Below, in pieces: positions 5,523-58,657 of a stretch of 64,000 nt of DNA. The stretch is from positions 1 to 64,000 of the forward strand of contig PGYO01000001.1 of assembly GCA_002839705.1 (NCBI GenBank), read 5' to 3'. A program made the translations under genes and the position numbers. The stretch is from Methanobacteriales archaeon HGW-Methanobacteriales-1 (GTDB lineage Archaea; Methanobacteriota; Methanobacteria; Methanobacteriales; Methanobacteriaceae). Numbering within the stretch: the first letter of the stretch is position 1; every line of letters starts with the position of its first letter. The notes below the pieces were generated by a model, which saw only the letters and a list, made by a program, of their open reading frames with translations, made no database searches and was not told the origin of the DNA.

Positions 5523-6167
5523 ATGCAGGATTCTGATTTTAAAACTAATAAAGATAAAATCAATGAAGAGGCAATGCCTTGGCTTGAAAAAGGAAATGAT
5601 TATTTCATGGCTGGAGAATTCAAGGAAGCTCTTTTATCTTATGATAAAGCACTGGAATTTGATCCTGAAAACAGTAAAATATGGGATAATAGGGGAGTTG
5701 TTTTGGCGGACTTGGGATGGCATGTAGAAGCAATAGAGTCATTTGAAATTGCTCTGGATCTGGAACCTGATAATTCAAAAGCCTGGTCTAATATGGGAGT
5801 TTCTTTAGGAGCATCCAATAGATTCGAAGAGGCTATAAACTGTTTTGATATGGCGATAGAACTCGACCCAGAAGATGATGATGCCTGGAGTAACAAAGGC
5901 ACGGCTTATTTTAGTATGGCCCAGTATGAAAAATCACTTGAAAGTTTTAATAATGCCTTAGATATAAATTCTAATAATCCTGGTGCACTAGCGGGTAAAG
6001 GATCAGCATTACGTTTTTTAAGGAGATATGAAGAAGCAGCAGTAGCATTGGAAAAATTCATGAAAAAGGCTCCTGAAGATTTATTACATATGCGAGAAGA
6101 AGCCTGGGCGATTTTACTGGAGATAAAACTTATTATGGAACGTGAAAATCAGGAAAATGGAAATTAA
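5523..6167 (+). CDS. Tetratricopeptide repeat protein
   Basis: 214 aa containing about four to five TPR units between residues 20 and 185, for example AIESFEIALDLEPDNSKAWSNMG and AINCFDMAIELDPEDDDAWSNKG patterns (shown in part). These form a superhelical protein-binding surface. No signal peptide or membrane anchor, so cytoplasmic. It follows the hydrolase gene by 19 bases and is likely in its operon. The binding partner is unknown. Confidence 0.88.
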   Translation: MQDSDFKTNKDKINEEAMPWLEKGNDYFMAGEFKEALLSYDKALEFDPENSKIWDNRGVVLADLGWHVEAIESFEIALDLEPDNSKAWSNMGVSLGASNRFEEAINCFDMAIELDPEDDDAWSNKGTAYFSMAQYEKSLESFNNALDINSNNPGALAGKGSALRFLRRYEEAAVALEKFMKKAPEDLLHMREEAWAILLEIKLIMERENQENGN

Positions 6168-54062: not shown

Positions 54063-54239
54063 TATCCATAAATTTTCCAATTATTCTTTATTTCATTTAA
54101 TTAGTTTATTAATTAGTAAAACTTGAATATTTTGTGTTAATAGTGATTATTATAATTAAATTATTAATATTCTAGTTTTTTTATTTTACATTTTTTAATT
54201 ATTTTCCGTATTCAAATTATATCTGCAGGGGTGTTTTTG

Positions 54240-54392
54240 GTGCAAGTAGTTGGAATATGTAGTTTATGTGGCAAAGCCGGAAGAATGAATACTTGCTCTC
54301 TTTGTGGAGCAATAGTATGTTCGGATTGTTATTATACGCCGAAAGGAGTCTGTAAATCATGCAAGAACAAAGTAAGCAGAAAAGTCATTTAA
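54240..54392 (+). CDS. Eight-cysteine zinc-finger mini-protein
   Basis: A 50-aa frame starting at GTG, 6 bases after AGGGGTG. It has four CxxC pairs (Cys7/10, 19/22, 27/30, 38/41) with spacing 8-4-7, resembling a two-zinc cross-brace or treble-clef finger; the rest is basic. It overlaps the start of pyrE by 34 bases, so translation is probably coupled. Short and easily missed, it is supported by the regular CxxC pattern and by a good ribosome site. Confidence 0.7.
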
Positions 54393-56664: not shown

Positions 56665-57311
56665 TTAGGGATTTTTAGCAAATCTAACTCCCATATCAAA
56701 GGCCTTCTCTAAATCCTGAGGAAATACTTCTTCTCTCCTTTTTGCTTTTTCTTCTGCATTAAAACGTGTGGCCAGAACCTTAGAATAATCTTTGAATTGA
56801 TAGGTATCACAGCTTAGAAGCGATTCTCCTGATCCAAATAACATTTTTAGATAATGTTCGTTAGTTGTAATTTGTACATTGTATCCATATTCTACTATAT
56901 CCTCTTCGGGGATGTTCATGGTGTAAATAAATCCTGCATTAATTTTATTTAGGAAAAGTGATTCTGGAGGGTTGGTATAAGTGAGATATGGGAAGAACAA
57001 GCGCTCCATGAAAGATCTCATTTCTCCAGTAACTGATCCAAAATAAATAGGAGAACCGAGTATAATGGCCTGAGATTCTTTAATCTTTTCTAAAACTGGA
57101 GTTAAGTTGTCTTGAATTAAACATTTTCGTAGATTTTATTACCAATTGCTTTACATGAAAAACAACTTTCACATCCTTTATATTCTAAATCATATAAATT
57201 TACTAATTCTATTTCAGCTTCCTGGGATTCAGCTCCTTCTAATACTTTATTTAGAAGCTTTGCTGTATTCCATTTCTTCCGAGGGCTACCATTAATGGCT
57301 ATAACTTTCAT
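56665..57311 (-). pseudogene. Frameshifted NADPH-dependent flavin reductase
   Basis: Two frames form one flavodoxin-like reductase of about 215 aa if one base is added near 57124-57130: MKVIAINGSPRKKWNTAKLL ... CESCFSCKAIGNKIY(G)KCLIQDN continues into ILGSPIYFGSVTGEMRSFMERL. The N-terminal FMN loop, the Cys cluster typical of iron-sulfur flavoproteins and the GSPIYFGS flavin loop are all preserved. A run GAAAA at the break suggests a lost G, by mutation or sequencing error. Confidence 0.75.
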
Positions 57312-57366
57312 TTTATTCACTTTAAATTCCGTTTTTATTATTCATTTTTTTAATCTATTTTTCATA

Positions 57367-57918
57367 TTATTTGATGTAATTTACTACATCTCTGTTTCTT
57401 TCAGGTGTATTTGGATTAGATAATGCTTTGTAACCAAAAGATACGGAATAATGAGGTTCATAACCTTCAGGAATGTTTAATTTCTTCAAATTTTCCGGAT
57501 TTTCATAGAAAAATCGGGCCAGGCCTATCCAGCAGGATCCAATATCAATGCTTTCTGCGGCCAGTAACATGTTCTGAATGGCGGCACAGCAATCAGCAAA
57601 GGGAGAAGTAGCGTCTTTTTTTCCAGAAACAACTATCACAGTAGGTGCATTGTAAAAAATGTGTAAATTTTCGGATCTGCCCATTTTAGCTATCCAATCA
57701 ATTGGTAAATTGACCATGGCTTTTTTACATTTTATATTCATTTCATCAATTAATTCTTTATTCTGTATTACTGTAAAATGCCATGGCTGGTCATTGTGGC
57801 CAGTAGGTGCATATATCGCTGCTTCAAGCATAGTCTGTAGCTCTTCATCTTTAATTTGCTCTGGAAGATATTTCCTGGTACTTCTTCTGCTTTTTATATT
57901 TTCTAGCACGTGATTCAT
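57367..57918 (-). CDS. Nitroreductase-family flavoprotein
   Basis: 183 aa. FMN-binding RRSTRKYLPEQIKDEEL at the N terminus, APTGHNDQPWHFTVI, and GSCWIGLARFF fit the family, which reduces nitro groups and other acceptors or removes halogens. It lies beside the broken flavin reductase on the same strand. GGAGTAATAAAAA precedes the ATG. Confidence 0.88.
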   Translation of the reverse strand: MNHVLENIKSRRSTRKYLPEQIKDEELQTMLEAAIYAPTGHNDQPWHFTVIQNKELIDEMNIKCKKAMVNLPIDWIAKMGRSENLHIFYNAPTVIVVSGKKDATSPFADCCAAIQNMLLAAESIDIGSCWIGLARFFYENPENLKKLNIPEGYEPHYSVSFGYKALSNPNTPERNRDVVNYIK

Positions 57919-58086: not shown

Positions 58087-58227
58087 TTATTCACAGCATC
58101 CTTTTTTAACATCTTTGCAAATTTCTTTTCCTTCTTCAGTGCACTTTATTTCCATTCCTTTTTCAGTTTTTTCAATGGTTGCTACAGTTTTATCTCCACA
58201 AACGATTTTGCATTCTTTATTTTCCAT
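58087..58227 (-). CDS. Cys-rich small protein divergent from PadR gene
   Basis: A 46-aa protein starting at ATG with GGAGGT upstream. It contains six Cys (6, 10, 29, 37, 44, 45) and ends GCCE; the core alternates charge and strand residues (CKIVCGDKTVATIEKTEKGM). It is likely a metal-binding or redox-active protein. It is transcribed divergently from the PadR regulator, and a TATA box (ATTATAAATA on the minus strand, about 58276-58285) lies between two operator copies. Confidence 0.78.
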   Translation of the reverse strand: MENKECKIVCGDKTVATIEKTEKGMEIKCTEEGKEICKDVKKGCCE

Positions 58228-58256
58228 ATTTTTAACCTCCACTTGTCTTTCGACAG

Positions 58257-58302
58257 TATCGGTTATGCGATAATACTATTTATAATTATCGGTTATACGA
58301 TA
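58257..58302. promoter_or_regulatory. Two TATCG-N6-CGATA operators in a divergent promoter
   Basis: TATCGGTTATGCGATA (58257-58272) and TATCGGTTATACGATA (58287-58302) are 15/16 identical dyads set 30 bases apart. They flank the minus-strand TATA box of the Cys-rich protein and lie upstream of the PadR TATA (TATTTTAATA, about 58329-58338). Two near-perfect copies in such a position make a regulator site very probable. Confidence 0.75.
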
Positions 58303-58360
58303 TTGGATATCAGATAGTAGATAACAAATATTTTAATAAGGTTTTTCCATATCATCTAAT

Positions 58361-58657
58361 ATGAAATGTTGTGAGATGAAGGGATATTTGACCTATTTAA
58401 TTTTATGGATATTAAGTAAAAATTCAATGAATGGGGCCCAAATTAGCAGGGAACTGGAAAAAAGAAGAGGAACCAAGCCTAGTCCGGGAACTATTTATCC
58501 TGCATTAAAGGAACTTAGAAAGAATGGCCTAATCAAAGTTGATGATAATAAAAATTATTCTTTAACTCCTGCTGGTGAGGAAGAACTTAAAGTGGCCTGT
58601 AAATCATTCTGCGATATATTTTATGATATGGACGATATGCTTGATTTTAAGAAATAA
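58361..58657 (+). CDS. PadR-family transcription regulator
   Basis: 98 aa. The winged helix covers GYLTYLILWILSKNSMNGAQISREL and SPGTIYPALKELRKNGLIKV (partly shown), with an Asp-rich C-terminal helix for dimer contacts. Cys3 and Cys4 (MKCCEMKG) and a Cys in the C-terminal helix suggest metal or thiol sensing, matching the adjacent Cys-rich protein. No ribosome site is visible; the TATA box about 30 bases upstream suggests a leaderless mRNA. Probably binds the paired operators upstream. Confidence 0.85.
   Translation: MKCCEMKGYLTYLILWILSKNSMNGAQISRELEKRRGTKPSPGTIYPALKELRKNGLIKVDDNKNYSLTPAGEEELKVACKSFCDIFYDMDDMLDFKK

Follow-up and report, generated by a model that had tools for sequence, protein, structure and literature searches.

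A PadR regulator and a divergent cysteine-rich mini-protein with shared operators: a probable thiol-stress switch in archaea

The window analyzed here, a stretch of 64,000 nucleotides from a Methanobacteriales archaeon, contains a small PadR regulator and a six-Cys mini-protein that are divergently oriented around a shared pair of operator dyads (Table 1). Comparison among genomes indicates that this module of regulator, operator and divergent gene is conserved. The regulator and its site recur beside Cys-rich mini-proteins, arsenic-detoxifying enzymes and flavin oxidoreductases, which makes a widespread and so far undescribed thiol-stress switch of archaea the probable explanation. A first-pass annotation had claimed a divergent 46-residue six-Cys protein and a PadR with an N-terminal CysCys, together with two TATCG-N6-CGATA dyads flanking a TATA box. 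Both genes are present where it placed them, and both dyads are exact. We call regulators of this type CC-PadRs. In this analysis, their clade is defined by a terminal Cys-Cys pair, one or more upstream TATYGN6CRATA operators, and a divergent gene that is Cys-rich or arsM; the window has all three.

Table 1. Features of the module and its neighborhood in the window
Feature	Coordinates	Strand	Evidence
Nitroreductase-family flavoenzyme, downstream of the mini-protein on the same strand	57367..57918	-	PF00881, E 1e-33
Type-A mini-protein, 46 aa, six Cys, C-terminal Cys-Cys	58090..58227	-	ORF and Shine-Dalgarno
Shine-Dalgarno of the mini-protein, GGAGGT (+ strand ACCTCC)	58235..58240	-	Sequence
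Operator dyad O1, TATCGGTTATGCGATA, exact TATCG-N6-CGATA	58257..58272		Sequence; conserved across clade
TATA-box-like element TTTATAAT, between O1 and O2	58279..58286		Sequence
Operator dyad O2, TATCGGTTATACGATA, exact TATCG-N6-CGATA	58287..58302		Sequence; conserved across clade
Weaker operator-like third copy, TATTGGATATCAGATA, 2 mismatches, overlaps O2	58301..58316		Sequence
CC-PadR regulator, 98 aa, PadR-s2 type, Cys 3, 4, 80, 84	58361..58657	+	PF03551

The CC-PadR regulator

PadR proteins of subfamily 2 (PadR-s2) are about 110 aa long and have one C-terminal helix for dimerization (PMC3506622). The 98-aa regulator of the window has this size and a single helix of this kind. In a profile search it scores 48.7 bits against the PF03551 cut-off of 27 (E 7e-13). 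Its model (pLDDT 89) has an ordinary PadR-s2 fold, with a predicted helix at 70-86 followed by a short helix at 90-94, and matches the folds of 4esf, 6abt and 5zi8 with a probability of 1.0. The N-terminal tail is flexible in the model, residues 1-6 being below pLDDT 50.

A Cys-Cys pair is found in 41 of 45 aligned members of the clade: 31 carry it N-terminally, 10 carry it C-terminally, and none has it at both ends. The DNA-binding core is poor in Cys, as is the whole segment from residue 8 to 84 (0.7%), and a Cys recurs at position 84 or shortly beyond. Cys80 and Cys84 do not occur in every CC-PadR, and some members have two Cys only. Because the C-terminal helix forms the dimer in PadR-s2 proteins (PMC3506622), the two subunits could plausibly share a thiol site at their interface. 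That the Cys pair senses a thiol-reactive agent is moderately probable. PadRs of the branch linked to arsenite methyltransferase (L018, L086-L090, L123-L125) mostly carry an extra Cys or Cys-Cys before the conserved pair, as in the N-terminus MSDCCPELPNCCDMRG, which suggests that their sensor tail is tuned to the target.

The six-Cys mini-protein

The mini-protein, MENKECKIVCGDKTVATIEKTEKGMEIKCTEEGKEICKDVKKGCCE, runs on the - strand from an ATG at 58227..58225 to a final codon at 58090; the mechanically called ORF begins at a GTG five codons before this ATG. Its Cys are C6, C10, C29, C37, C44 and C45. The frame is uninterrupted in four Methanobacteriaceae genomes, and all six Cys are kept in G001, G002 and G010. 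Two close relatives show 9 and 7 base differences, of which 7 and 5, respectively, are at third codon positions. We take the mini-ORF as coding because its six Cys are conserved and its differences from close relatives lie mostly at third codon positions, and the same two observations make a non-coding ORF unlikely.

A profile search gave the mini-protein no match in Pfam or NCBIfam, and no metallothionein family was matched. Its predicted structure is beta-beta-beta-alpha (pLDDT 83), with neither a sequence relative nor a fold relative in the PDB. An identity as a C(P)XCG zinc-finger micro-protein was rejected, as the Cys spacing differs and there is no Pfam match. The likeliest role for the mini-protein, judging from its composition and context, is that of a thiol or metal(loid) scavenger. 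It had been proposed as a linked partner of the PadR, and comparison with relatives bears this out, the pairing being conserved.

Distribution and phylogeny

Among the 61 relatives searched, strong matches to the mini-protein (E <= 1e-16) occur in G000, G001, G002 and G010. Of 152 genomes of the phylum, only the same four have the PadR. In another phylum, of which 236 genomes were sampled, all three strong type-A matches are divergent from a CC-PadR. A contig scan placed close relatives of the PadR in the distant Woesearchaeota and Bathyarchaeota, with many more from both phyla, and further clade members occur in two more archaeal groups. The tree separates the CC-PadR clade from 11 of 12 outgroup PadRs with support of 99/98, the exception being L051, which has a very long branch. 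The methanogen PadRs are nearest to those of G639 and G652, with weak support, and these two genomes also carry the type-A mini-protein. The patchy occurrence in Methanobacteriaceae suggests transfer. A phage origin is unsupported, as viral contigs contained no CC-PadR relative.

A divergent type-A homolog, MCGECKIVCKGKEIGTIEDNGSEIIIKRTKEGKNCFKGNCICNEK, was seen in G686 (L173:997-1134, - strand). The stretch retrieved contains no PadR or operator, and the homolog lies near ORFs named by eye as ferritin-like and iron-sulfur-like.

Operator dyads in the window and across the clade

O1 and O2 are spaced 30 bp, and the TATA-box-like element between them could serve one or both divergent promoters. 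The local composition of the intergenic region predicts about 9e-5 such sites. With two seen and no other exact copy genome-wide, a chance origin is unlikely. A search for further copies found O1 and O2 to be the only exact dyads in the 2.57-Mb genome, while the dyad recurs upstream of related PadRs. A regulon spread over the rest of the window's genome is thus rejected as far as exact sites are concerned. The earlier description of the switch as self-contained fits the window's module because its genome has no other exact operator, but it is too narrow for the clade, which probably controls other genes elsewhere. Tandem copies in the same 14-bp register as O2 and the weaker third copy are also found in L002, L004, L101, L113 and others. 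The canonical PadR-s2 operator is an ATGT/ACAT inverted repeat with a spacer of 8-10 nt (PMC3506622). A scan of the window's intergenic region with the 8-nt spacer found no ATGT-N8-ACAT.

Across 51 loci, the exact core ATCGN6CGAT has 54 sites in the 200 bp that precede each PadR start (10.2 kb in total) and 7 in the remaining 521 kb, an enrichment of about 390-fold, in a set with related sequences whose counts are not independent events. The degenerate form TATYGN6CRATA, with one mismatch allowed, has a site in 45 of the 51 loci and two or more in 38, 76-fold over background. Exact dyads are absent upstream of the outgroup PadRs (0 in 12 loci). In the arsM-linked branch the operator mostly has the form TATTGG...CCAATA. 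The spacing of the outer copies is mostly 30-32 or 40-44 bp, corresponding to three or four helical turns, and in most relatives an A/T-rich, TATA-like stretch separates the paired operators. Such spacing would be the geometry expected of an autorepressor covering the promoter core of a divergent pair. Co-occurrence across phyla supports the view that the PadR and the dyads belong together, and binding of the dyads by the PadR, with repression of both promoters, is very likely.

Further operators are found at a distance from the PadR. They lie ahead of nitroreductase genes (L155, L156); in G573 an operator is 20 bp before a nitroreductase start, and in G664 an operator pair precedes a nitroreductase. 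Three genomes of 2.8-3.4 Mb from the phylum of the Bathyarchaeota match (G379, G490, G518) have a second operator pair before another type-B mini-protein (L161, L166, L167). In G490 and G518, a single exact operator stands directly before a gene for a Rieske [2Fe-2S] protein (L158, L168). These trans operators are an independent link of the dyad with nitroreductases as well as with mini-proteins.

Divergent partners and neighboring genes

Three classes of gene are found opposite the PadR. Type-A mini-proteins occupy this position in the window and in G001, G002, G010, G639, G652, G712 and G885. Type-B mini-proteins, in which a Cys cluster is followed by RSFLTKEEK...LKEYKE..., do so at 24 loci. 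The two types are unrelated families, and both have Cys-Cys. An arsenite methyltransferase is divergent at 8 loci of one branch, and the protein tested scores 345 against the NF008823 cut-off of 263. The three classes need only 3 changes on the tree, and the remaining partners are single cases. An assignment of type B to DUF5320 (PF17253) was rejected at 17 bits against a cut-off of 27. In L086, upstream of the PadR at 6123, a possible 25-aa peptide that ends in ASCCSCCS replaces arsM, with a TTG start and a Shine-Dalgarno sequence. Read by eye, this peptide may represent a third type of Cys mini-peptide.

The nitroreductase is found at the same place in G002 and G010, and is absent at the G001 locus. 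The window copy has no exact operator of its own and is a probable co-member of the response. Of 34 genomes, 10 have a nitroreductase gene no more than 2 kb from the PadR, against at most 0.37 expected (~27x). If Methanobacteriaceae are counted once, 8 cases remain (Poisson P ~6e-9, other relatedness being uncorrected). Flavin reductases and one zinc-type/quinone-like dehydrogenase are further neighbors of CC-PadRs. Linkage to ars genes is seen in 8 relatives of one branch; the window's neighbors are instead the nitroreductase and an FMN reductase.

Other features of the neighborhood were noted. Beyond the nitroreductase, the NADPH-dependent FMN reductase gene of the window (56665-57320, - strand) is frameshifted near 57117 into parts of 67 and 118 aa. 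The G002 copy (L164) is frameshifted too, elsewhere in the gene, and the G001 locus has neither FMN reductase nor nitroreductase. At 54231-54392 (+ strand), a small Cys-rich ORF of 53 aa with several CxxC pairs is zinc-finger-like and lies just upstream of a 180-aa orotate phosphoribosyltransferase-like ORF.

Proposed mechanism and alternatives

We favor, as a somewhat better than even prospect, a module built on an autoregulated thiol-based repressor whose release induces a Cys-rich scavenger and detoxifying flavoenzymes. A CC-PadR dimer would bind the two TATCGN6CGATA operators, which flank the TATA box at a spacing of three helical turns. Bound PadR would block TBP/TFB and keep both divergent promoters silent, as clade-wide co-conservation suggests. 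Sensing would fall to the Cys-Cys pair, together with Cys84 or another Cys close to the C-terminal helix. These thiols may be modified or bridged by an oxidant, by an electrophile, or by a soft metal or metalloid such as As(III), and the DNA would then be released. Derepression would supply the six-Cys mini-protein as a sacrificial thiol or metal(loid) scavenger or chaperone, the PadR itself and, in the window, probably the adjacent nitroreductase too. At some sites the PadR could be an activator.

The arsM branch and the flavoenzyme neighbors point to a thiol-reactive stress in general, with arsenite as one plausible inducer. Since the window PadR lacks the extra N-terminal Cys of most arsM-branch PadRs, any sensing of arsenite by that branch may not be shared by it. 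The thiol-based repressor has points against it. The neighbors pull in two directions, the arsenite methyltransferase suggesting a metalloid and the nitroreductase, flavin reductase and quinone-reductase-like genes suggesting redox or electrophile stress. Moreover, the mini-protein has no characterized relative, and Cys80/Cys84 are not universal. A broader version, which taken as a whole falls somewhat short of probable, is an archaeal stress regulon with Cys-switch PadRs in methanogens, Bathyarchaeota, Woesearchaeota and possibly ammonia oxidizers. The Cys-Cys sensor would have moved between termini, with dedicated, interchangeable Cys-Cys mini-proteins serving as protein-encoded thiol or metalloid sinks. 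Recruitment to the same operator would have brought in arsenite methyltransferase and nitroreductases.

The enrichment of nitroreductases near CC-PadRs, the nitroreductase genes of G573 and G664, each with an operator of its own, and the flavin reductase and zinc-type/quinone-like dehydrogenase neighbors also favor a narrower, tentative alternative, namely a redox or electrophile switch like YodB or MsvR that works by disulfide formation or S-alkylation of the Cys pair. On this reading the nitroreductase would remove quinones or nitro compounds, and the mini-protein would serve as a redox carrier or sacrificial thiol. This leaves the arsM branch unexplained, and the same neighbor family is missing at some loci.

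A specific sensor of arsenite, as a soft metalloid, is unlikely, although several observations fit it. As(III) would bridge the Cys pair and a third thiol, and the mini-protein would buffer As(III). The divergent arsenite methyltransferase at 8 loci, the additional Cys or Cys-Cys upstream of the CC in most PadRs of that branch, and the Cys-Cys of both mini-protein families are in its favor. However, most members, including that of the window, adjoin no recognized ars gene and are often beside flavin oxidoreductases, and the window PadR lacks the extra Cys.

It is improbable that the module is a switch for Zn, Cu, Ni or Cd homeostasis of the YqjI or Rv3488 kind, with the mini-protein as a metallochaperone or metallothionein. 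The six Cys would suit such a role, metal-responsive PadRs such as YqjI are known, and Rv3488 structures are among the PadR matches. Yet no transporter or metalloenzyme gene consistently adjoins the module, His is scarce, and the PadR has no conserved His-Cys cluster. In the genomes sampled, type A is strictly paired with CC-PadR, and Cys-Cys chemistry is common to both; these points would also be consistent with a mini-protein that is no effector but a partner of the PadR, as a co-repressor, anti-repressor or thiol relay. We consider this quite improbable, since two unrelated mini-protein families and arsM fill the same position, a second mini-protein copy has its own operator in G379, G490 and G518, and the L173 homolog has no PadR on the stretch retrieved. 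Lastly, the departure of the dyad from the canonical PadR ATGT-N8-ACAT might mean that another regulator uses it and the PadR is a bystander, which is very improbable given that the dyad precedes almost every CC-PadR gene across phyla, is missing ahead of the outgroup PadRs, and has no further exact copy in the window's genome.

Implications

If the thiol-stress switch is true, two families of Cys-rich mini-proteins that otherwise lack annotation acquire a role open to testing, and a predicted regulator can be named for the methylation of arsenite in Bathyarchaeota. The specificity of the operator, with two exact sites per genome here, would allow regulons to be found in uncultured lineages and reporters to be built.

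Comparison with known systems

YqjI is a metal-responsive E. coli PadR that has a metal-binding N-terminal element and is divergent from its target. It is set beside the window PadR by description only. The two are alike in their divergence from the target, whereas YqjI has a long His/Cys-rich extension, the window PadR has Cys-Cys only, and the targets differ. The YodB/HxlR-type quinone-electrophile repressors are Cys-based and control nitroreductases. They are likened to CC-PadR by description only and belong to a different family and a different domain of life.

The archaeal C(P)XCG zinc-finger micro-proteins are likewise very small and Cys-rich (PMC11241148, PMC10716476). In contrast, the mini-protein of the window has no CPXCG or CXXC, and instead has a CX3C, single Cys and a terminal CC. 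We found no published description of CC-PadR, its operator or the mini-proteins in a search that covered few subscription journals. In the literature searched, nothing relevant connected PadR with arsenite methyltransferase, with nitroreductase in archaea or with thiol/electrophile sensing, and the titles and abstracts found on arsM in archaea included no PadR paper.

The solved PadR-s2 relatives are the best sequence and fold matches of the window PadR. LmrR, bcPadR1/2 and Rv3488 have the same size and the same winged helix with one C-terminal helix. The window clade differs from them in its vicinal Cys at either terminus and in its TATCGN6CGATA operator, as opposed to ATGT-N8/10-ACAT (PMC3506622). 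Its profile match, size and fold place the regulator in PadR-s2, but its operator departs from the canonical one.

The archaeal thiol switches given in PMC9426492 are MsvR and SurR of the ArsR family and OxsR of the TrmB family, with no PadR among them. MsvR represses itself and the adjacent operon, and oxidation releases it (PMC9426492). Like the window PadR, these three are archaeal regulators of small size that have a winged helix and Cys at key positions (PMC9426492), although they belong to different protein families. If the proposal is true, a PadR switch with an operator conserved across archaeal phyla would be a third kind beside those of the ArsR and TrmB families (PMC9426492).
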